From Phycisphaerae bacterium (GTDB lineage: Bacteria > Planctomycetota > Phycisphaerae > UBA1845 > PWPN01), in the NCBI GenBank assembly GCA_018003015.1, contig JAGNEZ010000003.1, positions 62,001 to 126,000 of the forward strand: a DNA stretch of 64,000 nucleotides, read 5' to 3'. Position numbers and translations under genes: made by a program. Of the stretch, positions 676-12,735 are shown piece after piece (positions within the stretch are counted from its first letter, which is position 1; the number at the start of each line of letters is the position of its first letter). The notes under the pieces were generated by a model. The model had not been told where the DNA came from. It made no database searches and was given only the letters and a program-made list of their open reading frames with translations.

Positions 676-1575
676 TCACTTGAAGAGCTGGCGGCGAGCC
701 GCCTTCGTGATCGCCGCCACGGCCGGATGCCGGATCCGGCGCTCTACGGTGATCGCGAAGAACCGTTCCCGATGGTCCTCAATCGATCCGATGGGCTCCA
801 CGCGAAACCGCCTCATGATGTCCGACTCGACCACGTCATAGCCCGCGAAGAACCCTTCGCCGTGCTCGCCAAAGGTACTCAACAGGGCAACGTCCTCAAA
901 CTCCCCGATGACCTTGGGCGTGACGTCGACCGACTCGAGCCACCGGTCAATCGCGGCCCGCAAGGCACCGCCCGACGCCGGGAGCAGCGCCGGTGCGCCA
1001 TGCAGCGATCGCGGAAAACCCTTGCGCATCCGGTGAGCGTGCTTCGGCGAGGCAAACAGCGTGACGCCGCACTCGCCGAGCAGGTGACTGTAAGCCCGAA
1101 CTCTGATGTGCGGACCCACCGGCGCGTCCGACAGGACCAGGTCCAGATCGTGAACCGCAAGGGCGGGCAGCAACTGGGCCGGCGACCCGTCCACGCATGA
1201 GATCCGGCTCGGTTCCGGCAGGTGAATCACCGGCGACAGAAGCCGGTATGCGACCAGTTTCGGGATCACGTCGTTGATCCCCACGTTCACCTGGATGGAG
1301 ACCCCGACGGAACGGCCCTTCAAGGTGTCCACCATCTCGCGGCCAAGCGCAAAGATCTCGTCCCCGTATCGGAAAACCACCCGCCCCATTTCCGTCAGCG
1401 CCAGGTTTCGCCCGACACGATCGAACAGCTTCTCGCCCAGCGAACGCTCAAGCTCATGGATCTGGGCGGAGATCGTCGGCGGAGCGAGCAGCAGTTCCTG
1501 CGAGGCCGCAGCTATAGAACCCGCCCTCGCGACCGTCCAGAAGTAAAAAAGATGATGGTAGTTGAGCCAGTCCAT
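676..1575 (-). CDS. nhaR: LysR-family transcriptional regulator, NhaR-like
   Basis: The 299-residue protein matches the length of NhaR (about 300). Residues 1-60 form a LysR winged helix-turn-helix; the N-terminus MDWLNYHHLFYFWTVAR and the PTISAQIHELERSLGEKLF helix are characteristic of the NhaR branch. Residues about 90-295 form the periplasmic-binding-like effector domain. NhaR of enterobacteria responds to sodium and activates the antiporter gene nhaA. No antiporter is visible here, so the target and ligand are unknown. The gene is divergent from the 1961-9404 run and could act on it, but no LysR box could be demonstrated. A strong promoter lies so close to the ATG that the mRNA is probably leaderless. 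The family call is firm; the symbol is by resemblance. Confidence 0.88.
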   Translation of the reverse strand: MDWLNYHHLFYFWTVARAGSIAAASQELLLAPPTISAQIHELERSLGEKLFDRVGRNLALTEMGRVVFRYGDEIFALGREMVDTLKGRSVGVSIQVNVGINDVIPKLVAYRLLSPVIHLPEPSRISCVDGSPAQLLPALAVHDLDLVLSDAPVGPHIRVRAYSHLLGECGVTLFASPKHAHRMRKGFPRSLHGAPALLPASGGALRAAIDRWLESVDVTPKVIGEFEDVALLSTFGEHGEGFFAGYDVVESDIMRRFRVEPIGSIEDHRERFFAITVERRIRHPAVAAITKAARRQLFK

Positions 1576-1960
1576 CCCCTTATGATAGTTCGTTTATTAC
1601 GATGTGTCAATTCACCATTCTCTATTTGCCTAAGTATGCAGGAAAGGGTATAGTGAGCATGGACGAAGAAGCGGCGACCTCGATCACCCACAAGCACCCA
1701 GGCGAAGCCATCCGGACCTAGGTCGTTGGCCCGGACATCGCTCGTCGCCCAGCCACCGGACCAGGCCCCCGCGGCGCCCCGTGCCGCGGACCCGGTCGGC
1801 ACCCCCGGCATCAACCTGTCGGCGGGGATGCCCGCCGGAGACGATCGTTCGTATTTATCGATGAATGGTTGAGTTAGATTCTAAGAATCCGTACAGCGAT
1901 GCCGGACGTATATATCCGGTGGAGACCAGGGGAACACCCTGAAACCCAAAGGAGATGGGC
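1576..1960. other. Divergent intergenic region with two dyads
   Basis: These 385 bases separate the LysR gene from the 1961-9404 run. Besides the leftward promoter at 1582-1610, I see a dyad GATTC-TAA-GAATC at 1877-1889 and CCGGA(N8)TCCGG at 1902-1919, both upstream of the rightward genes. They could be operator sites or a leader hairpin. No convincing rightward sigma-70 promoter was found. The middle (about 1650-1860) is GC-rich with no gene that I can support. Confidence 0.45.
1582..1610 (-). promoter_or_regulatory. Sigma-70-type promoter of the nhaR-like gene, predicted leaderless
   Basis: On the minus strand a perfect -35 TTGACA (1605-1610) and a -10 TATCAT (1582-1587, one mismatch) are separated by exactly 17 bases. 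The expected start of transcription, about seven bases past the -10 box, falls on or next to the A of the start codon at 1575. Only AAGGGG separates the -10 box from ATG. Confidence 0.7.
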
Positions 1961-2347
1961 ATGCGAATCAGGATGAGCGGACATGGCGTCGAGGTCAACA
2001 CCGTCCTGAGAAAACGGGTGCAGCGGCGGCTCCAGTTCGCCCTGTCCCGGTTCTCCAACCGCATCCGCGCCGTCGCCGTCCGACTGAGCGACATCGGCGG
2101 CGATCGGGGCGGGGCAGATCGCTCCTGCCGGATCATCGTCCACCTGTCCCCGACCGGCACGATCATGATCGAGGACCGCGACCCAGACCACTCGGTCGCC
2201 ATCGATCGGGCCGCGGATCGGGCCGGACGGGCCGTGGCTCGCGAGCTGCGCCGCCGCTGGGAAGTGAGAAGACGTGCAACCCTGCGCGGCAACGACGCCC
2301 AGTTTCGGTTGCGGGGCGCGTCATGGGCGTTCAGCCACAGGAGCTGA
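1961..2347 (+). CDS. hpf: Short HPF/RaiA-type ribosome hibernation factor
   Basis: The 128-residue protein has the HPF/RaiA (sigma-54 modulation, S30AE) layout. A beta strand with GHGVEVN is followed by a basic helix (RKRVQRRLQFALSRF), then strands including IRAVAVRLSDI and a CRIIVHLSPTGTIMIED stretch, and a second basic helix. Such proteins bind the decoding centre of idle 70S ribosomes in stationary phase or stress. It has only the N-terminal domain, so it is the short form without the dimerisation domain. I chose ATG 1961 over ATG 1955 because AAAGGAG (1948-1954) is correctly spaced for 1961. It is the first gene of the packed rightward run. In many bacteria hpf neighbours a PTS EIIA gene, and here an EIIA domain occurs further down the same run (4487). 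Confidence 0.8.
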   Translation: MRIRMSGHGVEVNTVLRKRVQRRLQFALSRFSNRIRAVAVRLSDIGGDRGGADRSCRIIVHLSPTGTIMIEDRDPDHSVAIDRAADRAGRAVARELRRRWEVRRRATLRGNDAQFRLRGASWAFSHRS

Positions 2348-2420
2348 ACGAGAACCAGATTCGGCCCAACAGGGTCTGACCGTGTCCTCAGCCTAGGACA
2401 CGACTTCCAGGAGGTGCTCT

Positions 2421-2720
2421 ATGGTAAACCAGACGGATCGGATTGTTCGATACTTCCGCCGGCGATGCGGGGAGGGACGGATTCTGCACAACGCCGCATG
2501 CCACTTGCTCCAGTTGATCCTGGAACAACCAGGTACCGATCGCGTGGAGGACTTGATGGCATTCTGTGGGAATCCCGAGAACCTCAAACCCTGGTTGCCG
2601 AATGAGACTGACCGGCTCATCTTCTCGGAAGGCCTGCTCGAGGGACTGCGCGACCTGGCGTCGCAACCGCACTACAGGAGCAGGCACCGCATGAGGACGG
2701 CGCCAGCCAGTATGAATTGA
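2421..2720 (+). CDS. Small hypothetical protein, 99 residues
   Basis: I do not recognise this protein. It is 99 residues long and predicted soluble, with no signal peptide or membrane segment, and it ends in a basic tail. A good ribosome-binding site (AGGAGG, spacing about 8) precedes ATG 2421. Its stop codon lies in the ribosome-binding region of the next gene, which supports translation as part of the run. Cysteines at CGEG, AACH and AFCG are scattered and form no obvious metal site. The reading is supported by position, ribosome-binding site and tight spacing rather than by homology. Confidence 0.6.
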   Translation: MVNQTDRIVRYFRRRCGEGRILHNAACHLLQLILEQPGTDRVEDLMAFCGNPENLKPWLPNETDRLIFSEGLLEGLRDLASQPHYRSRHRMRTAPASMN

Positions 2721-2728
2721 GGCCGACC

Positions 2729-3079
2729 ATGGTCACTCACTATCCAAACGGAGACGTCGAGTTCCGCTTCTTCCGGCCCAACGCCCAGCGCGTCTGCCTC
2801 GTCGGCGACTTCAACGGCTGGCGCCGATCGGAAGCGGCCATGAGCAAGAGGAGCGACGGATGGTGGACCCGCCGGTTGCACCTCAGGCCGGGAGCCTATC
2901 AGTTTCAGTACCTGGCCGACGGCGAGCGCTACCTCGACTTCGCGGCCTTCGGCGTGGAACGGGGACCTCTGGGCGGATGGAACTCCGTGGTGGTCGTCGG
3001 CCAGCCAACCGGAGCGAAAACGACCGGACGGCGGGATGTGTCGCTACAGGTCGCCGCCGCGGCAGGACGTGAGGCGTGA
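2729..3079 (+). CDS. CBM48 glycogen-binding domain protein (stand-alone)
   Basis: The 116-residue protein consists almost entirely of one CBM48 / isoamylase N-terminal-type domain. Its strands include VEFRFFRPNAQRVCLVGDFN, GWWTRRLHLRPGAYQFQYL and a final WNSVVVV. The VGDFNGW motif and the GAYQFQYLADG turn match the glycogen-binding domain of the AMPK beta subunit and of branching enzymes. No catalytic domain follows, so it is probably a targeting or sensor module for alpha-glucan. I chose ATG 2729, since GAGG at 2719-2722 is spaced correctly; an upstream TTG at 2717 is also possible. It sits between an unknown gene and an Rnk-type gene in one run. Its partner could be another protein of the run, but that is inference. 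Confidence 0.8.
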   Translation: MVTHYPNGDVEFRFFRPNAQRVCLVGDFNGWRRSEAAMSKRSDGWWTRRLHLRPGAYQFQYLADGERYLDFAAFGVERGPLGGWNSVVVVGQPTGAKTTGRRDVSLQVAAAAGREA

Positions 3080-3115
3080 AATGTGCGGCCGGAAGCGGTC
3101 AAGGAGGCTGATGTC

Positions 3116-3544
3116 ATGAAAGCCAGAAACATCTACATTACCGTGGAGGACATGACCCGGCTCTCGGAGTACGTGCGCGTCGCCCGGGCCCGGCACCAGG
3201 AAGACATCTCTTATCTGAACACCCTGCGCGAAGAACTCGACCGGGCGGACGTCGTCCTGCCCGAGCGGATGCCCGCCGACATCGTCACCATGCACTCGCA
3301 GGTGCTGCTCCGCGATCTGGCTTCGGGCGAGGAAACACAGTATGTGATCGTCTTCCCCGAAAACGCGGACATCCTCGAGGGCAGAATCTCCGTCGTATCG
3401 CCGATCGGGGCCGCGATGCTCGGACGCAAGGTCGGTGACACGATTCGGGTTCACGCACCGGCCGGAACCAGACGAATGCGGATCGAGCGACTCCTGTTCC
3501 AACCGGAAGCAGCGGCGATGTTGTCGAGAGAGGCCTGTGCCTGA
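3116..3544 (+). CDS. rnk: Rnk-type GreA/GreB C-terminal domain protein
   Basis: The 142-residue protein matches Rnk, the regulator of nucleoside diphosphate kinase, in size and layout. An N-terminal helical hairpin (MTRLSEYVRVARARHQED) is followed by a GreA/GreB C-terminal FKBP-like domain with the typical SVVSPIGAAMLGRKVGDTI strand-turn. Rnk binds RNA polymerase near the secondary channel without GreA-like cleavage activity. ATG 3116 is preceded by AAGGAGG (3101-3107, spacing 8). The in-frame upstream start at 3083 has no comparable site. The gene lies 37 bases after the CBM48 gene and 28 before the next. The family is clear; the exact role in this organism is inferred. Confidence 0.82.
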   Translation: MKARNIYITVEDMTRLSEYVRVARARHQEDISYLNTLREELDRADVVLPERMPADIVTMHSQVLLRDLASGEETQYVIVFPENADILEGRISVVSPIGAAMLGRKVGDTIRVHAPAGTRRMRIERLLFQPEAAAMLSREACA

Positions 3545-3571
3545 TCGGGCTGAGCCCGGGAAAGGACGCTG

Positions 3572-4438
3572 ATGTGGTCCTTCACCGAATCACGAGCGAA
3601 AACGCCGGAGGGCCGCCTGCAGAATGCCATGCAGGACATCGCCACCCTGCTGAAGCGTCTGGGGGAGACCGAAGCGCTCTCCCGATTCAACGCCGGCCTG
3701 ACGTCCGGCCCGAATCCGTCGGACGCGACACTGCTCGGATGGCTGGCACACACGATCGGGCCGCAAGCGACGCTGCGAGTTATCGCTTCGTACGCTCGGC
3801 AGCCGTGCTTCTGCTGTCACAACGGCCTGGAACCCTGCGACTCGTGCGACGGCCGAGGGCATTCGGGTGGCAGCGAGGTCTGCGTGCAGTGCCTGGGACT
3901 CGGCGCAGCAAGATGCGACTTCTGCGCCGGATCCGGCTTGGTGACGTATGACGCCGTCCCCCACGGGCTTCAGGTACCGGTGGCGCTGCGCCGAATGAAA
4001 GACGCCGTCAGCCGCGTCCGGCAGCATCTCGACCAGCCCCTGCCGCGAGTCTCGGACGTCGAACCGATCAGCAGTCTGAGGCAGGCCGCGAAGGCTCTGT
4101 CGGACCTGAATCGGGCCCTGGGGGTGTTCGAGAACGGCCTGTTGTTTTCCAAGGACAGTACCAACTGCGGCCGGAAGACCCAGACTGAACTTGCTCATGT
4201 TGTGCGATCGAGCGTACAATGTACGGTCGCCTGTCGTTCGAGAATGCGAGAGCTCATCGAGGTCATGGCCGGCGCCGCCCGGCTCGCGGCTGAATCGGTC
4301 TCTCAGGACGCTCGCCACCGGGCCATCTTGCTCGAACAGGCGAGGTTCTACGACTCCTGCCTGGGACGTTCGGACCCCTTTGCGGGCACAGGTCTCGAAC
4401 ACCCCTACCTCGACAAGGCCGTGGCCGCGCCGGCGTAG
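3572..4438 (+). CDS. DnaJ-type zinc-finger protein of unknown function
   Basis: The 288-residue protein has a DnaJ-like cysteine-rich centre at residues about 79-122. Four cysteine pairs (CFCC, CDSC, CVQC, CDFC) occur with glycine-rich spacers such as CDGRGHSGG and CAGSG, a pattern that binds two zinc ions. There is no J domain and no DnaJ C-terminal domain. The flanks (1-75 and 130-288) look helical and soluble. It may be a zinc-dependent scaffold or chaperone-like partner for the enzymes downstream. AAGGA precedes ATG 3572 at good spacing. The gap to the EIIA/opine-dehydrogenase gene is 48 bases. The function is not known. Confidence 0.7.
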   Translation: MWSFTESRAKTPEGRLQNAMQDIATLLKRLGETEALSRFNAGLTSGPNPSDATLLGWLAHTIGPQATLRVIASYARQPCFCCHNGLEPCDSCDGRGHSGGSEVCVQCLGLGAARCDFCAGSGLVTYDAVPHGLQVPVALRRMKDAVSRVRQHLDQPLPRVSDVEPISSLRQAAKALSDLNRALGVFENGLLFSKDSTNCGRKTQTELAHVVRSSVQCTVACRSRMRELIEVMAGAARLAAESVSQDARHRAILLEQARFYDSCLGRSDPFAGTGLEHPYLDKAVAAPA

Positions 4439-4486
4439 CCGTCGCCGCGAACCGGTGACCAGTGAACCCGCGAAACAGAGAACCAC

Positions 4487-6169
4487 ATGCGTATCTCCCA
4501 ACTCCTGGATTCACGTTGCGTCCTGACCGGCGTCTCCGCGACGGGCAAGGAAGCCGCCCTCAATCGGCTTGTCTCCACCCTCGGTGAGGCCCGCGGTGTC
4601 GATGTCGAACTGGCCCTCCGCGACATCCGCGCGAGGGATCGGGCCGGGGCTATCCTCCTGCCGTTGGGACCCTATCGTGTGGCCGTGCCTCACGCGACCA
4701 CGGCCGCCTGCAAACAGCTCCTCTTCGCCATGGCCACCTGCCGTGAAGGCGTGCAATGGGATGACGATCCGGAAAACCGAGCCCATCTGATTGTCGTCCT
4801 GCTCGGTCCGCCCCAAACCCGTGGGCTGTATCTTCGCGTCCTCAGTCGCATCGCCCGACTCTGCTCGGACGAGAAGGTGGTCGAGTCGCTGCTCAACGCG
4901 GAGTCGCCGGAGCAACTGATCGAACGCTTGGCGGAGGAGGAAGAACCACTGGGGGAGATCGTCGCCGCGGACGGCATGCCGGCTTTCTGTATTCTCGGGG
5001 CCGGGCCCGGCGGACTGGCCATGGCCGGGCACCTGGCCCTCACGGGCTGCAAGGTCAACCTCTTCACCCGCAGCGAAGAACGACTTGCCCCCATTCGGGC
5101 GGCTGGTGGCATCCGTGTCACTGGTGAGGTACACGGCTTTGCCACCCTCAATCTCGTCACGACAAGTATCGGCGATGCCGTACGGGACGCGGATGTAGTC
5201 ATGGTGGTCGTGCCGGCCACCGCCCACCGCAATATCGCCAATCTCGTGGCCCCACACATCAAGGATGGGCAGATTCTGGTGCTCAATCCGGGCCGGACGG
5301 GCGGAGCGCTGGAAGTGGCCCAAGTACTGCAAGCCAGGAATCCGCAGGTCCGCCCCTACGTGGCCGAGGCCCAGACATTGCTGTACGCATCGCGACTCAC
5401 CAATCCCGGCCAGGTGCACGTGTTCGGTATCAAGAGCTCCGTCCCCGTCGCCGCCCTGCCGGCCTACCAGATCGCCGATATCCTGCCCGTCATCCGCAGC
5501 GCTTTGCCCCAATTCATCCCCGGCGACAATATCCTGAAAACCAGCCTCGACAATATCGGGGCGGTATTCCATCCGGCTATCACCGTCCTCAACGCCGGCC
5601 GAATCGAGGATACCCACGGCGACTTCGAGTACTACGTTCGAGGCGTGACGCCAGCCATCGCTTCCGTCCTGGAGGCGATCGATCGAGAGCGGATCGCCGT
5701 GACCGGCGCGCTGGGTATCCGAGCCCACACCGCTCGCGAGTGGCTCTATCTGGCGTACAACGCGGCCGGCAAGACGCTGCTCGATGCGATTCAGGCGAAT
5801 CCCGGATACCGCGGCATCCGGTCCGTCGCCACCGTGCAGCACCGCTACATTTCCGAAGACGTACCCATGAGTCTGGTCCCCATCGCGTCGATCGGTCAGA
5901 TGCTCGGTGTCCCCACACCGACCATACGCGCCGTGATTCACCTGGCGTGCGTCATCCACGGCGTGGACTACTGGGCGGAGGGACGAACGGTGCAGCGATT
6001 AGGGATCGCCGGCATGTCGGTCAAGGATATCCGTCTCCTGGTCGTGGGAGCGGAACCGGCAACCCCAGTACCCAACACACCACCCAGCCAGCACCCGTTG
6101 GATGGCGATTCGCTCGAAGGAGCCTTGTGGAAGCCGGAGATCAATACCCATGAGGACGCATTCAGTTGA
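4487..6169 (+). CDS. PTS EIIA (PtsN/fructose type) fused to opine-dehydrogenase-like NAD(P) oxidoreductase
   Basis: The 560-residue protein joins two families. Residues 1-150 form a type-2 PTS EIIA domain with the phosphorylatable histidine in VAVPHATT (His69). Residues about 165-530 form an octopine/nopaline-dehydrogenase-type enzyme. That part has a Rossmann motif ILGAGPGGLAMAGHLAL (about 168-184), the VVPATAH and LNPGRTGGA segments after it, and a C-terminal helical domain with N-x5-HP at IGAVFHP (His362), the conserved catalytic position in this family. Known members reductively condense an amino acid with a 2-oxo acid. The EIIA domain probably couples activity to phosphotransfer state, which is inference. 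The last 50 residues are Pro/Ser-rich and extra. The gene overlaps the next by 20 bases. No EI, HPr or sugar permease is nearby, so a regulatory role is more likely than transport. Confidence 0.85.
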   Translation: MRISQLLDSRCVLTGVSATGKEAALNRLVSTLGEARGVDVELALRDIRARDRAGAILLPLGPYRVAVPHATTAACKQLLFAMATCREGVQWDDDPENRAHLIVVLLGPPQTRGLYLRVLSRIARLCSDEKVVESLLNAESPEQLIERLAEEEEPLGEIVAADGMPAFCILGAGPGGLAMAGHLALTGCKVNLFTRSEERLAPIRAAGGIRVTGEVHGFATLNLVTTSIGDAVRDADVVMVVVPATAHRNIANLVAPHIKDGQILVLNPGRTGGALEVAQVLQARNPQVRPYVAEAQTLLYASRLTNPGQVHVFGIKSSVPVAALPAYQIADILPVIRSALPQFIPGDNILKTSLDNIGAVFHPAITVLNAGRIEDTHGDFEYYVRGVTPAIASVLEAIDRERIAVTGALGIRAHTAREWLYLAYNAAGKTLLDAIQANPGYRGIRSVATVQHRYISEDVPMSLVPIASIGQMLGVPTPTIRAVIHLACVIHGVDYWAEGRTVQRLGIAGMSVKDIRLLVVGAEPATPVPNTPPSQHPLDGDSLEGALWKPEINTHEDAFS

Positions 6170-8024
6170 AACGACGGATCGCTTCGGCCTGGTCCGACCA
6201 GCCATCGAAGCCCACACCCTGGGCATCACCTCGGTGGAACAGATCCTCCGAGATTGTGGCTACACGGTCGTCGTGGGAGACGCCCCGACCTGTGAGGCGT
6301 TCAACCGGCCTGAAGATCCCCGCTATTGCGCGGCCATCGAGCAATGGCTGCGCGAGAACCGAATCACCATCCTGGGTTTCAGCTACCGCCTGGATCCACG
6401 CCAGGGAGCCCTCCTCTTCGAGAGACTAATCCACCAGCTCAAGACCAGAAGATTGCTCGCCGAACAGGGCGGCTTTCTCAAGGCAGTCTACTTCGCCGGC
6501 CTGCCCAAAGCGTGCGAGCTGGTGCAACAGCGCGTTCCCGAGGTCGCCGGTGTCTTCCGTGGCGACGAGACCCCCATAGAGACCCTGGCAATGCTCGCCA
6601 TCAGACCGGACACTATGCCGAGAAACCTCGCCGAAGGCGCCGGCTATGACCAAGCGAGACTGTCGTTCGGGAGAGACCTGATCCAAAAGGGCCACTACCT
6701 GCAGGTCCGACCTGTCGACCGGAGCGGCTGTGGAGAATTCGGCACCCGGCGGGACACCCTGGTCCGACGCGTGGAACATGCCCGGACCCACCAACTGCCT
6801 CCCCTGATGCGAGCCCACATCGGACCCTATCAGGCCGACCGGGCCCAGGCCGTCTCTCTGTTCCTTGAATGGACCGGCCGCCTGGCGAGATCCGGCTTAC
6901 TCGACATCCTGTCGATCGGAACCTCCCAGTTGACCCAGTCCGCATTCGGGGAAAACTGGAATGGCAGACCCAATGGGGGCGGAGTACCCATCAACTCCCC
7001 GACCGAGTTCGCAGCAGTCTGGCAGGCCGCCCGGCCAATGCTCGTCCGTACCTATGCCGGCACAACCCACATCCCCGAGCTGGCCAGGATGTACGAACAG
7101 ACCCTGTACATGGCCTGGCATGCCCTCTCGTTGTGGTGGTTCTGCCGCATCGACGGCCGAGGCCCCTACTCGGTGCGTGAGAACCTGGAACACCATCTCC
7201 AGACCATCAGGTACGTGGCGTCCGTGGGTAAGCCCTTTGAGCCGAATGTACCCCACCACTTCGCCTTTCGCGGCGGAGATGATGTCACCTGTGTCGTCTC
7301 GGCGGTGCTTGCCGCCAGAGCGGCCAAACACCACGGCATTCGCCACCTGGTACTTCAGAACATGCTGAACACCCCCAGGTCCACTTGGGGCGTTCAGGAT
7401 CTCGCCAAGTCCCGTGCCATGCTGCAGCTGGTTCGCGAACTGGAGGACGATTCTTTCCACCTCATCCTGCAACCCCGCGCGGGCTTGGATTATTTCTCCC
7501 CCGACCTGGCCAAGGCGAAGGCTCAACTGGCGGCCGTCACCGCCCTCATGGATGACATCGAGCCTCAGAATCCAAACAGCCCCCCAGTCATCCATGTGGT
7601 AAGCTACTCCGAAGCCTCGCACCTGGCCGATCCCCCCGTGGTCGACGAGAGCATCCAGATCACTCGCCATGCCCTGGCCGAGTACCGGCGATTGCGCGCC
7701 AAGGGCAGCGTGGACGACATGACCGAGAATCCGGAAGTCGCCCAGCGGACCCACGAGCTGCTGCAGGAAGCCCGCGCCATCCTCGCGACAATCGAGACCC
7801 ATGTACCGTCATCGTGCTCTCCGGAGGGGCTGTATCGCATCCTCGCAGGCGGCTTCCTCGCCGTTCCCTACCTCTGGGAATGCCGGGAAGAGTTCCAGCG
7901 CGCCATCCGCTGGCCAACCCGGCTGATACGCGGGTCCGTCAAGGTCGTCGATCCACAGGGCAATCCGCTTCCTGCCGCCACGCGGATGGAGATGGTCCTC
8001 GATGATCTGAAACGGCAGGCTTAA
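6150..8024 (+). CDS. B12-dependent mutase-like protein: cobalamin-binding domain fused to GlmE-like barrel
   Basis: The 624-residue protein starts with a cobalamin-binding Rossmann domain (about 10-150). EAHTLGITSVEQILRDCGYT carries the lower-ligand motif in the form E-x-H-x-x-G (His22), followed by TILGFSYRL and AVYFAGLP at the usual S-x-L and G-G positions. Residues about 220-520 resemble the barrel of glutamate mutase subunit E: PNGGGVPINSP corresponds to GGGISYNVP, and TCVVSAVLAARAAKHHGIRH corresponds to its later helix-strand unit. In Clostridium these are two proteins (GlmS, GlmE); here they are one chain. It probably catalyses a radical carbon-skeleton rearrangement of an amino acid, but the substrate cannot be read. 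Residues about 530-624 are a tail I do not recognise. ATG 6150 overlaps the upstream gene by 20 bases, implying coupled translation. Confidence 0.75.
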   Translation: MRTHSVETTDRFGLVRPAIEAHTLGITSVEQILRDCGYTVVVGDAPTCEAFNRPEDPRYCAAIEQWLRENRITILGFSYRLDPRQGALLFERLIHQLKTRRLLAEQGGFLKAVYFAGLPKACELVQQRVPEVAGVFRGDETPIETLAMLAIRPDTMPRNLAEGAGYDQARLSFGRDLIQKGHYLQVRPVDRSGCGEFGTRRDTLVRRVEHARTHQLPPLMRAHIGPYQADRAQAVSLFLEWTGRLARSGLLDILSIGTSQLTQSAFGENWNGRPNGGGVPINSPTEFAAVWQAARPMLVRTYAGTTHIPELARMYEQTLYMAWHALSLWWFCRIDGRGPYSVRENLEHHLQTIRYVASVGKPFEPNVPHHFAFRGGDDVTCVVSAVLAARAAKHHGIRHLVLQNMLNTPRSTWGVQDLAKSRAMLQLVRELEDDSFHLILQPRAGLDYFSPDLAKAKAQLAAVTALMDDIEPQNPNSPPVIHVVSYSEASHLADPPVVDESIQITRHALAEYRRLRAKGSVDDMTENPEVAQRTHELLQEARAILATIETHVPSSCSPEGLYRILAGGFLAVPYLWECREEFQRAIRWPTRLIRGSVKVVDPQGNPLPAATRMEMVLDDLKRQA

Positions 8025-8048
8025 CCCACCCCCTAGGAGACCATATCC

Positions 8049-9404
8049 ATGGCGGGTATTGCAGGAATCGTAGGCACCGGCAAAAGTGAGTCCGTCAGCC
8101 GAATGCTGACCCGAATGGCCCATCGTGGCCGGGCCGGACACAAAGTGGTCGAAACGAAGGGCACCACGCTCGGCGCCGTTTGGCCGGCCGGCGCTCGCCG
8201 CCCGATCCTCCGGGAGCACCACGTCGCCTGCGATTCCATCGGCAACGGACAGTTCGCGGAAGCCCGCGCGAACGACGGCACCCTGACGCTCTCACGCGAT
8301 CCCATCGGAGCCGTCCCGCTCTACTATGGCCAACACGCGGACGGCTCGCTCTGCTTCGCCTCGGAGGTCAAGGGCCTGCTGGAAATGACTAGGGATGTGA
8401 ACGAGCTTCCGCCCGGCTGTCAGTATGACGGCCAGCACCTGATCCGAGGCGATGAGCTGCAGGTCAGGGGAACCATCACCGAGCAGCCCGAAGATGTCGC
8501 CACCACCTTGTGGGCCTGCCTGGACGGGGCGGTCAGAAGTCGCATTCACCAACACACGATGGGCGCATGGCTGTCCGGCGGACTCGATTCCAGCGCCATC
8601 GCCGCCCTGGTCCGACCGCACGTGCGCAGGCTGTACACCGTCGCCGGCGGCGTGGCAGGATCACCCGACCTGGGTTTTGCCCGGCAGGTCGCGGACGTCA
8701 TTCGGTCGGACCACCACGAGGTCGTGATCAGTCTCCCAGAAATGCTCCACGTCCTCCCGACCGTCATCTACCACCTGGAGTCGTTTGACGCCCTGCTCGT
8801 ACGGTCCAGCATCATCAACTACCTCGTGGCACGACGCATGGCCGAACTCGCTCCCGAAACCTTCTCCGGCGAAGGAGGCGATGAACTGTTCGCTGGCTAC
8901 GACTATCTCAAAACCCTGGAGAGCTGCCACCTCGCCCAGGAACTCGTGGATCTCATCGGGCGGCTGCACAATACGGCCCTGCAACGGGTCGACCGCTCGG
9001 CCGCCGCCCACGGGCTCGTGGCCCACGTCCCTTTCGTCAACCCGACCATCGTCGATTACGCGACGCGCATCCCCGTCGAGTTCAAGATCCGCAACGGCAT
9101 CGAAAAGTGGATCCTGCGTCAGGCGATGAAGGACCTGCTGCCCCCGGCCGTCCTCAACAGACCCAAGGCCAAGTTCTGGCAAGGCGCCGGCGTCGGCGAC
9201 CTCCTGTCGAACCACGCCGACCAGCACATCTCCAATGAGGAGTTCAGACACCAGCGGAACCTGGACAACGGCTGGATGCTCAACAGCAAGGAAGAGCTCA
9301 TGTACTACCGGATCTTCAAGGACGCCTTCGGCACACTCGAGAATCTATCCTGGATGGGCCGCACCAAGGGGGCCCCGTCCGTCACGAGACTCGAGCGAAC
9401 GTGA
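8049..9404 (+). CDS. Asparagine-synthetase-like amide ligase lacking the glutaminase nucleophile
   Basis: The 451-residue protein has the AsnB fold: an N-terminal Ntn-type domain and a C-terminal ATP pyrophosphatase domain with SGGLDSS (176-182) and the later FSGEGGDELFAGYDY motif. These residues bind ATP and adenylate a carboxylate. The glutaminase half is dead: the invariant start MCG reads MAG, so the nucleophilic Cys is Ala. The block carrying the glutamine-binding NGEIYN and GSD motifs is also missing, making the domain about 55 residues shorter than in E. coli AsnB. The remaining parts (MAHRGRAGH, LSRDPIGAVPLYYG, FASEVKGLL) keep the scaffold. It should therefore use free ammonia, an amine, or an internal amine as in beta-lactam synthetases. 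AGGAG (8036-8040) precedes ATG 8049. It is the last gene of the run, 24 bases after the mutase. Confidence 0.88.
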   Translation: MAGIAGIVGTGKSESVSRMLTRMAHRGRAGHKVVETKGTTLGAVWPAGARRPILREHHVACDSIGNGQFAEARANDGTLTLSRDPIGAVPLYYGQHADGSLCFASEVKGLLEMTRDVNELPPGCQYDGQHLIRGDELQVRGTITEQPEDVATTLWACLDGAVRSRIHQHTMGAWLSGGLDSSAIAALVRPHVRRLYTVAGGVAGSPDLGFARQVADVIRSDHHEVVISLPEMLHVLPTVIYHLESFDALLVRSSIINYLVARRMAELAPETFSGEGGDELFAGYDYLKTLESCHLAQELVDLIGRLHNTALQRVDRSAAAHGLVAHVPFVNPTIVDYATRIPVEFKIRNGIEKWILRQAMKDLLPPAVLNRPKAKFWQGAGVGDLLSNHADQHISNEEFRHQRNLDNGWMLNSKEELMYYRIFKDAFGTLENLSWMGRTKGAPSVTRLERT

Positions 9405-9474: not shown

Positions 9475-12400
9475 TCAGCCCGTCACGCAGGACGGATCGA
9501 CCATCACCCCCGCACCGCGGTAACAGCGCTGGAAGATACCAAAGTCGGATTGGTCAATGTCCAAATCCCCGTCCAAGTCGGCTCGCTCACCGCCAGGCAC
9601 GGGCGGACCCATCGCCGGTCCAGTCCAGCACCCCCGGAAAACCACGAAATCGTCACCGTCCACGTCACCATCACAGTCGAAGTCCGGCGAAAACGGCGGC
9701 CGCCACGGGCGGGCGGCAATCCGGGCCTGCGCCGCGGCCAGCATCGACGGCCAAACCGTGTTGTCAATCGGAAAGCCGTATTCCGAGGAGAAATGATCGC
9801 GCAAATCCTGCCCGGCCGAGGCGCTGAACGCCGCGACGATCCACGTGGCCTGCTTCCCATCATCATTGATGGTCACCGGCAACCCCTCCTGCGCCGGCTG
9901 GAACGTGCTGAACAGGTCAAACCACGCCTTCGGGCCGTAAGCCTCGTACACCTCATAGAAAATGCCGTCCATCAGGTCGGGCGTCAGACTCCGGTAGTTC
10001 TTGCCGGCATTCTTGTACTTCACCAGTTGCTGCTGGTATGCAGCCTTGGCATTGTCGAAATCAAGGTCAATACTCTCCCGGGCCAACGATCCGACCGCGG
10101 AGGGACATGCCCCCAGGCAGTGGCGAGTCCACATCCCGCACAGCGTCGCAAGCCCTTCACTGTAGGTGAAGTTGAGCATACAACCCGGGGCGGTGATGAA
10201 CTGGTACAGCGGGCCGGAGGCAAGGATGAAATTGTGCCCCAGCTCGTGAAAGATAATCCCCCACTGCGGAACAGGACGACGCGGATCGGCGACGATGTAG
10301 CAACTCTTCGGATCAGGGCTGCAGAACAACCATCCCAGCCGGATCGGATTCGTGCCCGCAAGGCCGCACACCGCAGTGCTCTCGTTGTTGGTCACGTCGC
10401 ACACGAAGTAATGCAGACCGCCACGATAGGGCAGCGTTCCGGTCAGATCGTGCTGCGCCCGGTAGGCGAGATCCGTGGCCGCAACCTGATCGTAGTCAGC
10501 AGCAAGCTTCGCGAGGTCAAAGCCCTGGATCAGCCCCGGCGCGTAAAACGCGATCCGATCGCCCCGAAAGGGCTCGTGCTGCACACCCAGGTCCACATCA
10601 GTGCAGCGAATCAGCGCCTGGTTGTCCGCAATGACACCGTCCGCCGTGACCTCGACCCAGCCCGTGGTCCCGGACGCCATGGCCGACGGCGCTGCCGTGA
10701 CCACCCCGGCCGCATCCACGGTGCCCACGCTTGCACTCAAACCGCTGTACTCCAGGCAATAGTCGCCGGTCGGCAGCAGCTCGCCCGCCGGGCCGCGAAT
10801 CTCAACTTCCAGCTGCCCACTGGGTACACCAGGCGATAACAGCAGCAGCGGCGTGGTGACGATGACGTGAGCCGGCGCCGGCCGCGTCAACCCCAGACTC
10901 CACTCCCATGTCTCCCCATTGGTGATCACCGAATAACCGTTGTACGTGTCACCCCCCAAAAGCACGATCGCTCCCCGCGCGCTGTCATACGCCATCGCAT
11001 GCGATCCGCGAGCCCGCGGCACCGCCTTGGCGAACCGCATCATCGCCCAGCTCTCACCGTCCCACCACCAGGCGTCGTTCTGGTAGGTGTAGGTGGCTGT
11101 GCGGCCGCCAAAAAGCACCGTCCTCCGCCCGTGGCGGTCATAGACCATGGCGTGGTCCAGCCGTGCAGCCGGCTCGCCCCTGACCCCCGAGCTGCGCCGG
11201 GTCCAGTCCACCCCATCCCACTCCCAGGTGTCCCGGTAATACGTCGAGTAGCTGCTGTAGTGGTAGCCGCCGAACAACACGGTGACCCCGCGGTCGCGGT
11301 CATAGACCATGGCATGCAGATGTCGCGCCAAAGGACTGTTGCTCGCCGTCCGCTGCGTCCAGGTCGACCCGTCCCACTCCCAGGTCTCGTCGTTGGAAAC
11401 TCCGGTGTAACCGCCAAAAAGAACCACCACATGGCGGCGGCTGTCGTACACCATCGCGTGGCCGCTACGCGACGAGGGCCCACCCACAGCCTTCTTGACC
11501 CAGGCGACACCGTCCCACTCCCACGTCTCCACCCCCGCACTGTTGCCGCCAAATAGAACAACGACATGGCGATCGCTATCGTACGCCATCGCATGGCCGT
11601 GACGAGGAGAAGGACCGGTCGTCGCCTTGAGCACCCAGAGATTACCATCGTACTCCCAGGTCTCGGCCCCGCCGGAGGTGCCACCAAATAGAACAACCAC
11701 CTCGCGGTCGCTGTCGTACGCCATGGCGTGCGCCCTGCGCGGCGAGGGACTACCCCTGGCAATCTGTATCCACTCACCACCGTTCCACTGCCATGTGTCA
11801 CTGCCGGCGCTGCCACCCTGCAGACTCCCTCCAAAAACCATCGCAGCCTGCTGAATAGGGTCATACACCATGCCATGATCCCACCGCGATGGAGGGCTCG
11901 CCACCGGCGCACGCTTCGCCCACGACACCCCGTCCCACTCCCAGGTCTCGTTCGTGTAGGGACTGGTCTTGCCACCGTACAGCGTAATCACCCGCCGAGC
12001 CCCGTCGTACACCATCGCGTGCCTCTCACGCGGCGATGGACGCGCCGCCGGACTACGCTCGGCCCACACCGCCCCATCCCACTCCCACGTGTCATTAACC
12101 GCCCCGCCGCTGCCCCACCCCCCAAAGAGCACCGTCACCTCCCGGTCACGGTCGTACACCATCGCATGCTCATACCGCGGCGACGGCCGGACCGCCGGAT
12201 CCAGCAGTGCCCAATCCGTGCCGTCCCATGTCCATGTGTCACTCATGTAACTGCCGGTCATCCATCCGCCAAATAGCAACACCACGCCCCGGCTGACATC
12301 GTAAACCATCGCATGGCTAGTAAGAGCAGGCGGCATGTGCACAGGATTCCGCTGCACCCAACTCGTGCCGTCCCATTCCCAGGTCTCGTCACTGTACGAG

Positions 12401-12735
12401 GTCGCACTGCCTGCAGTGCCTCCAAAAAGCACTGTCACCCCGCGAGTCGAATCGTAAGCCAATGCATGCCCGCTCCGGGCAGACGGGCCGGACGTGGACC
12501 GCAAGGACCACGCCGAGCCGTCCCACTCCCACGTCTCTCCGAAGGCAAAACCCAGTTGGCCCCCAAACATGACCGTCACTTGCCGAGCACTGTCGTAAAC
12601 CATGGCCAGCGAAGCCCGGGCGTCCGGCTGGGGCTTATCCCAACCCGCACAGGTCTGGCCAACTACCGGGCAAACACCTAGCGCCAGAACCAACGCGACG
12701 GCCACCCCCCTCAAAACGCTGAGCTTCCGTCCCAT
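9475..12735 (-). CDS. Secreted kelch-repeat metalloprotease-like protein with C-terminal dockerin
   Basis: The 1086-residue protein has four parts. A signal peptide (1-26, hydrophobic, ending VVGQ) comes first. Twelve kelch-like repeats follow (about 38-622), each of about 45-54 residues with HAMVYD, VVLFGG and ETWEWDG..W signatures, forming beta-propellers. Next is a beta-sandwich-like segment, then a zinc-peptidase region with FHELGHN (about residue 829) and a following YSEGLATL glutamate, the gluzincin pattern. The C-terminus holds two dockerin-type calcium loops (DCDGDVDGDDF and DLDGDLDIDQSDF). It is probably exported and attached to or displayed at the cell surface. GGAAAGGAG precedes ATG 12735 at good spacing. 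The protease activity is inferred from the motif only, and the substrate is unknown. Confidence 0.8.
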   Translation of the reverse strand: MGRKLSVLRGVAVALVLALGVCPVVGQTCAGWDKPQPDARASLAMVYDSARQVTVMFGGQLGFAFGETWEWDGSAWSLRSTSGPSARSGHALAYDSTRGVTVLFGGTAGSATSYSDETWEWDGTSWVQRNPVHMPPALTSHAMVYDVSRGVVLLFGGWMTGSYMSDTWTWDGTDWALLDPAVRPSPRYEHAMVYDRDREVTVLFGGWGSGGAVNDTWEWDGAVWAERSPAARPSPRERHAMVYDGARRVITLYGGKTSPYTNETWEWDGVSWAKRAPVASPPSRWDHGMVYDPIQQAAMVFGGSLQGGSAGSDTWQWNGGEWIQIARGSPSPRRAHAMAYDSDREVVVLFGGTSGGAETWEYDGNLWVLKATTGPSPRHGHAMAYDSDRHVVVLFGGNSAGVETWEWDGVAWVKKAVGGPSSRSGHAMVYDSRRHVVVLFGGYTGVSNDETWEWDGSTWTQRTASNSPLARHLHAMVYDRDRGVTVLFGGYHYSSYSTYYRDTWEWDGVDWTRRSSGVRGEPAARLDHAMVYDRHGRRTVLFGGRTATYTYQNDAWWWDGESWAMMRFAKAVPRARGSHAMAYDSARGAIVLLGGDTYNGYSVITNGETWEWSLGLTRPAPAHVIVTTPLLLLSPGVPSGQLEVEIRGPAGELLPTGDYCLEYSGLSASVGTVDAAGVVTAAPSAMASGTTGWVEVTADGVIADNQALIRCTDVDLGVQHEPFRGDRIAFYAPGLIQGFDLAKLAADYDQVAATDLAYRAQHDLTGTLPYRGGLHYFVCDVTNNESTAVCGLAGTNPIRLGWLFCSPDPKSCYIVADPRRPVPQWGIIFHELGHNFILASGPLYQFITAPGCMLNFTYSEGLATLCGMWTRHCLGACPSAVGSLARESIDLDFDNAKAAYQQQLVKYKNAGKNYRSLTPDLMDGIFYEVYEAYGPKAWFDLFSTFQPAQEGLPVTINDDGKQATWIVAAFSASAGQDLRDHFSSEYGFPIDNTVWPSMLAAAQARIAARPWRPPFSPDFDCDGDVDGDDFVVFRGCWTGPAMGPPVPGGERADLDGDLDIDQSDFGIFQRCYRGAGVMVDPSCVTG
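10870..12624 (-). repeat. Twelve tandem kelch-like coding repeats
   Basis: Twelve degenerate in-frame repeats of about 135-160 bases encode the kelch-like units of the 9475-12735 gene. At DNA level the most constant stretches are those encoding ETWEWDG and HAMVYD. This is a protein repeat array, not a CRISPR array. Confidence 0.8.

Follow-up and report, generated by a model that had tools for sequence, protein, structure and literature searches.

A conserved cassette of an opine dehydrogenase, a putative B12 mutase and an AsnB homologue appears to encode an undescribed small-molecule pathway

N-(1-D-carboxylethyl)-L-norvaline dehydrogenase of Arthrobacter sp. 1C (CENDH, here ArODH; structure 1bg6), an enzyme of apolar amino acids, is a full-length homologue of the dehydrogenase domain encoded by the first of three coupled genes (A, B and C) that we analysed in a 64,000-nucleotide stretch of DNA from a Phycisphaerae bacterium (GCA_018003015.1, contig JAGNEZ010000003.1, positions 62,001–126,000 of the forward strand; hereafter the window, in which all positions are counted unless another locus is named). 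Six hot-spring opine dehydrogenases have L-Asp and L-Glu, with pyruvate, as their preferred substrates; mutagenesis showed that Arg at ArODH position 111 and Gly at position 198 shift the preference from Phe to Asp, and Arg at position 35 was tied to the use of NADPH (Telek et al. 2024; PMC10787698). As described there, these enzymes (mODH-45, mODH-582 and others) carry Arg111 and Gly198 and have ArODH as their nearest relative, as gene A does, and they were published as isolated enzymes whose physiological role is not known (PMC10787698). The product of gene B is predicted to share its barrel fold and a colinear C terminus with GlmE, the epsilon subunit of glutamate mutase (1cb7, PF06368). 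Gene C has in common with Escherichia coli AsnB (1ct9) the synthetase half, the SGGLDS motif and the Glu348 position, and resembles beta-lactam synthetase (1jgt), whose substrate is an N-carboxyethyl amino acid, and CarA (1q15) in being an AsnB relative with a dead glutaminase. Here we describe how the three genes recur together and what they are likely to do.

Genes A (4487–6169), B (6150–8024; start codon chosen by comparison with relatives) and C (8049–9404) lie on the forward strand, A and B overlapping by 20 bases and B and C separated by 24. The tight coupling reported in the first-pass annotation of the window was exact when the coordinates were rechecked. The three genes form a real, conserved cassette that spans several phyla. 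Gene B is carried by about 21 genomes from three phyla and is rare and patchy: a single-sequence search across the window's phylum, less sensitive than the profile searches that came later, found it in 5 of 392 genomes (two at weak E values near 1e-3), and profile searches gave 11 carriers among 297 genomes in the phylum of an Acidobacteriota relative, 4 among 198 in the family of a Bacteroidales relative and 4 among 114 in the window's order. No match to gene B was found among 72,556 plasmids, and a plasmid origin was rejected on that basis.

An opine dehydrogenase lies within the same few-kilobase cluster at 18 of 21 gene B loci and adjoins gene B in 17 (at L055, AsnB sits between the two). 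The conserved linkage that was to be looked for across planctomycetes extends well beyond them. AsnB is in the cluster at 12 of the 21. Neighbouring cassette genes mostly overlap or are less than 60 bases apart. Four Bacteroidales have, instead of AsnB, an ATP-grasp gene coding for an amino-acid-ligase C terminus; it lies immediately upstream of the dehydrogenase, in capsule-type loci (assigned by family scan in L052 and L010 and by sequence likeness in the other two). Of the three remaining loci, one is cut within gene B by the start of its contig, and those of the related genomes G548 and G588 have gene B alone. Dispersal in relatives, which had been named as a case against the set, was found in one distant relative, G588, where all three genes are nevertheless retained, on three contigs; in G548 the cassette dehydrogenase was not found in the genome. 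Within the window's order (114 genomes), gene B and a cassette-type dehydrogenase (E <1e-170; the next-best ones score near 1e-60) share the same four genomes and occur in no others. The chance of this match under independence is about 1.5e-7, a figure that overstates the significance because two of the four genomes share one genus. The recurrence of the set in three phyla places the association beyond chance.

Gene A encodes a 560-residue protein in which an EIIA domain of the phosphotransferase system (PTS), PtsN-like (residues 1–150; PTS_EIIA_2 in Pfam, E 4.9e-21, 75.6 bits against a cut-off of 27), stands in front of a CENDH-type opine dehydrogenase (Octopine_DH, PF02317, E 5.5e-48, 163.2 bits against a cut-off of 30) with both a Rossmann and a helical domain. 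The fusion proposed by the first-pass annotation was thereby confirmed. The nearest solved structure is 1bg6 (E 1.6e-78). In ArODH numbering, the catalytic His202 (His362 in gene A; codon 5570–5572) and the conserved Arg292 and Asp297 are kept in all cassette dehydrogenases. Gene A differs from ArODH in having Arg rather than Ala at the specificity-determining position 111 (Arg270; codon 5294–5296), Gly rather than Asn at its partner 198 (Gly358; codon 5558–5560) and Arg rather than Ile at position 35, the marker of NADPH use (Arg195; codon 5069–5071), from which acidic substrates and NADPH are predicted (PMC10787698). The Arg111/Gly198 pair is present in 19 of 19 cassette dehydrogenases from three phyla, a new observation of this analysis. 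Of the 18 in which position 35 could be read, 17 have Arg (L054 has Ile). By comparison, three dehydrogenases of the window's order that lie outside cassettes carry Tyr111/Asn198, and none of these has Arg111/Gly198. Because the pair is found in all 19, the cassette enzyme most likely yields an N-(1-carboxyethyl) acidic amino acid, a prediction made from specificity residues.

The EIIA fusion occurs in 5 of 19 cassette dehydrogenases, and all four fusions that were aligned retain the phosphorylatable His (His69 in gene A, predicted site in the motif VAVPHA; codon 4691–4693). The host genome encodes EI and HPr in adjoining genes. The phosphorylation state of EIIA tracks the ratio of phosphoenolpyruvate (PEP) to pyruvate, and since pyruvate is the expected co-substrate of the dehydrogenase, a regulatory link between the two domains would be sensible. 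Phosphotransfer control, suggested in the first-pass annotation, is thus possible in the host; the fusion is not a general feature of the cassette.

Gene B encodes 624 residues, with an N-terminal B12-binding domain and a GlmE-like TIM barrel recognized from relatives and from the predicted structure. Pfam, run on the single sequence, finds only a weak B12-binding domain (E 0.035); PF02310 is matched by 5 of 6 members of the family (best E 5.7e-8). Among all solved structures, the predicted model most resembles the epsilon subunit of glutamate mutase (1cb7_B; E 2.4e-10 by Foldseek; Z 23.7 across 361 residues), followed by lysine 5,6-aminomutase (Z 20.6) and ornithine 4,5-aminomutase (Z 19.1). 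A better model, that of the relative L056 (predicted local distance difference test score 87.6), gives Z values of 33.5, 30.4 and 27.6 for the same three folds, and its N-terminal domain matches the corrinoid protein 1y80 (Z 15.7). A cobalamin domain fused to a GlmE-like barrel, as first annotated, is therefore supported by relatives and by predicted structures. The motif EAHTLG (6207–6224), of the DxHxxG type, contains the predicted cobalamin-binding His22; this His is present in 18 of 19 aligned rows, the remaining row having a gap, and the motif Asp position is occupied by Asp or Glu in a long subfamily of gene B and is absent in a short one. Fold and motif His point to an adenosylcobalamin (AdoCbl)-type mutase.

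The active site of this putative mutase is not that of GlmE. The two profiles align (hhalign probability 95%, E 1.1e-8 in one comparison), yet gene B does not match PF06368, and its relative G485 reaches 17 bits against a cut-off of 26.6. In the profile alignment, the GlmE claw residues Arg66 and Arg100 correspond to invariant His223 and Gln263, Glu171, Tyr177 and Tyr181 are lost, and Glu488 matches GlmE Glu330. An invariant Arg300 lies near the position of GlmE Arg149 and may be its counterpart, the alignment there being ambiguous by two residues. The residues that hold the glutamate amino group in GlmE are not kept; the roles of GlmE residues are those of the Clostridium cochlearium enzyme, whose sequence as used here agreed with the PDB chain. 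With most substrate-binding residues changed, the substrate of gene B is probably not free glutamate, and our best guess is the opine itself. Membership of the classical glutamate mutases was rejected for the same residues and the lack of a PF06368 match. The PLP- and B12-dependent aminomutases (KamDE, OraE) need pyridoxal phosphate (PLP) on a Lys of the B12 domain; the N-terminal B12 domain of the gene B family has no conserved Lys, and this class was also rejected.

The host also encodes a separate, canonical GlmS–GlmE fusion at another locus (L067; G000:C70:2000-14000), so a one-chain B12 mutase is not unique. At L067 this protein (PF06368, E 8.3e-142) is encoded directly upstream of another AsnB-like gene, the two open reading frames (4031–6949 and 2073–4007, both on the reverse strand) forming a second mutase–AsnB pair in a region apparently rich in glycosyltransferases.

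Gene C encodes a 451-residue AsnB homologue (Asn_synthase, Pfam E 1.7e-56) with a dead and shortened glutaminase domain, in agreement with the first-pass annotation of an AsnB-like ligase without its nucleophile. The N terminus reads MAGIAGI, Ala2 (codon 8052–8054) replacing the nucleophilic Cys, and the glutamine-binding part of the domain is absent (the NGEIYN segment is deleted), which sets it outside the glutamine-dependent synthetases. The synthetase half is homologous to that of E. coli AsnB (E 1.7e-42), and the similarity of gene C to beta-lactam synthetase (E 3.3e-20) and CarA (E 4.4e-15) is weaker. The SGGLDS ATP-pyrophosphatase motif (8574–8591) shows no variation across the cassette AsnB family except for Leu or Phe at one position. 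Glu348 of AsnB is the general base for ammonia, whereas Tyr348 and Glu382 form the dyad of beta-lactam synthetase; gene C has Glu275 (codon 8871–8873) at this position, and not Tyr. Lactam closure is for this reason less likely than amidation, and membership of the beta-lactam synthetases was rejected, the reaction type surviving as a rival only. As the glutaminase is dead, free ammonia is the likely nitrogen source, judging from these residues. The VTTIRAS stretch of 1ct9 is ALLVRSS in gene C, and the acceptor is therefore probably not plain aspartate.

Six cassette AsnB relatives keep Cys2 and an apparently working glutaminase. We at first suspected repeated loss of the Cys, but in the AsnB tree Cys-bearing and Cys-less members are split by one branch (support 100/99), all Cys-less members falling on one side; the loss is one old event. 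The long and short gene B subfamilies are 27–35% identical and fill the same slot beside dehydrogenases that, Bacteroidales excepted, are about 50–65% identical across both. The AsnB split cuts across the two gene B subfamilies, so parts of the cassette have been swapped while the set was retained. The pairwise distances of the three proteins (dehydrogenase, mutase and AsnB) nevertheless correlate with one another (Mantel P 0.0002 to 0.0095). Each gene had initially been regarded as unusual on its own, a view to be corrected for the minority status of the EIIA fusion, the second one-chain mutase of the host and the single origin of the Cys loss.

We propose, at roughly even odds, that the three genes form one biosynthetic unit that makes the amide of an acidic-amino-acid opine. 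Gene A would join pyruvate reductively, with NADPH, to an acidic L-amino acid (Asp, Glu or a related one), giving an N-(1-carboxyethyl) amino acid. Either before or after this step, gene B would rearrange a carbon skeleton by AdoCbl chemistry, acting on the amino acid or, more likely, on the opine. Gene C would then activate a carboxylate as the acyl-AMP and convert it to an amide with free ammonia. In the window's lineage, EIIA phosphorylated via the host EI and HPr would probably tune the dehydrogenase to the PEP:pyruvate ratio. In the Bacteroidales capsule loci, the ATP-grasp ligase would replace AsnB, probably attaching the product to a glycan or an amine; elsewhere the free product may be a compatible solute, the weakest step of the proposal. 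A more specific version, in which an undescribed family of AdoCbl mutases acts on the N-carboxyethyl acidic amino acid or its amide, within a horizontally spread pathway that has exchangeable AsnB and ATP-grasp steps and a first enzyme under PTS control through an EIIA that senses PEP:pyruvate, is tentative and clearly the less probable of the two.

Neighbouring genes at several loci hint at ion or osmotic stress. NhaR-type regulators lie near the cassette in the window and in L043 (both above the NCBIfam cut-off), an MscS gene is found at L012 and a CLC channel at L048, and MarC-type membrane genes follow AsnB (Pfam-confirmed in L047). The Bacteroidales neighbours hint at glycans and, once, the L055 neighbour at metal efflux. 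A gene for a DUF5698/DUF2179 membrane protein lies directly downstream of the cassette in L043 (5906–6466) and near it in L046 (5220–5819). In the window, the NhaR-type LysR gene is followed by small stress-type genes upstream of the cassette (676–4438; S30AE, CBM48, GreA/Rnk-like and a Cys-rich 288-residue protein); the close relative L008 keeps this gene run, the 288-residue gene being apparently broken there. Beyond gene C, the reverse strand (9475–12735) encodes a probably secreted protein of 1086 residues that has numerous FGG/ETWEWDG (kelch-like) repeats and resembles a dockerin at its C terminus. No cobalamin riboswitch or other Rfam element was detected at the cassette at the gathering threshold.

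Three further neighbourhoods are recorded here. At L055 (2501–7375; G926), a CusA/CzcA-type RND efflux gene lies directly upstream, on the same strand, of the EIIA-dehydrogenase, AsnB and gene B. At L012 (4800–10323, reverse strand), the cassette is closely followed by cyclodeaminase/FchA-like and FtcD genes, and HutI lies farther down the same strand. In G548 (L076, 3972–7201) and G588 (L077, 3769–6998), Cys-less AsnB genes are translationally coupled, away from gene B, to hydantoinase B/A genes, for which the nearest NCBIfam models are caprolactamase subunits.

Several observations weigh against amide synthesis. The pocket of gene B differs from that of GlmE, and the direction of the dehydrogenase, reductive or oxidative, is not readable from sequence. 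The cassettes at L009, L011 and L042 have neither AsnB nor ATP-grasp adjoining them, so an amide step is not universal. Glutamate formiminotransferase genes come right after the L012 cassette, with the imidazolonepropionase of histidine breakdown further on, and AsnB stands beside oxoprolinase- or caprolactamase-like genes in G548 and G588; catabolism or lactams would fit these contexts too. A lactam would arise if gene C closed a ring within the opine, in the manner of beta-lactam synthetase acting on N2-(2-carboxyethyl)arginine, giving a cyclic opine such as N-carboxyethyl pyroglutamate or a small lactam. In favour of this, the two enzymes would have formally similar substrates, the glutaminase is dead throughout one cassette AsnB clade, and the direct coupling of Cys-less AsnB to caprolactamase-like subunits in G548 and G588 points the same way. 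We nevertheless consider it unlikely, as the sister AsnB clade has an intact glutaminase, which is sensible only for ammonia transfer, and gene C is nearer AsnB than 1jgt, with Glu in place of the dyad Tyr. The opine-like or amide product first suggested is supported as an idea.

An equally improbable reading makes the cassette catabolic, serving the uptake or use of an acidic-amino-acid opine or of a product of histidine or glutamate breakdown, with the dehydrogenase working oxidatively and the mutase funnelling the carbon skeleton onward. Besides the same-strand L012 genes, a Na:alanine symporter gene adjoining a lone gene B in L044 (and probably L045) and an alanine racemase gene downstream in L011 favour it. 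Against it, the cassette contains an amide synthase that consumes ATP, or else an ATP-grasp ligase, which points to synthesis; the Bacteroidales copies lie within capsule-synthesis loci; and the published dehydrogenase relatives run well reductively (PMC10787698). More doubtful still is an aminopolycarboxylate metallophore of the opine type, like staphylopine or pseudopaline, in place of a solute or glycan part. The RND gene at L055 lies 75 bases from the cassette. N-(1-carboxyethyl)-Asp or -Glu would chelate metals strongly. But this is the only such neighbourhood, amidation would lower chelation, and the part of the neighbours that was annotated included neither a nicotianamine-synthase-like gene nor a TonB receptor nor a metal regulator. 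Finally, the phylogenetic spread is patchy enough for any single pair of genes to be fortuitous neighbours. That all three are unrelated and adjacent by chance is, however, very improbable, given the same set and order in unrelated genera of three phyla, exact co-occurrence in the window's order and retention of all three genes when dispersed, and recurrence and co-occurrence led us to reject chance for the set as a whole.

Opine-amide synthesis therefore remains our preferred reading, and the cassette appears to point to a small-molecule pathway that is as yet undescribed: the first-pass annotation knew of no pathway with this combination, and no paper describing the three enzymes together was found by keyword search of the literature, subscription journals being largely outside its scope. 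The core idea of that annotation stands, with corrections as to how widespread the EIIA fusion is, how the glutaminase came to be dead and what the mutase acts on. If true, our proposal would set the opine dehydrogenases for acidic amino acids reported in 2024, which lack a known role, in a physiological context, and would add a new family of AdoCbl mutases with an altered substrate pocket. The glutaminase-dead AsnB and the ATP-grasp ligase would then be exchangeable steps of one pathway. The gene set is small enough for reconstitution in vitro, making its product discoverable, and the EIIA domain fused to a dehydrogenase that uses pyruvate would allow phosphotransfer control of a biosynthetic pathway in planctomycetes to be tested directly.

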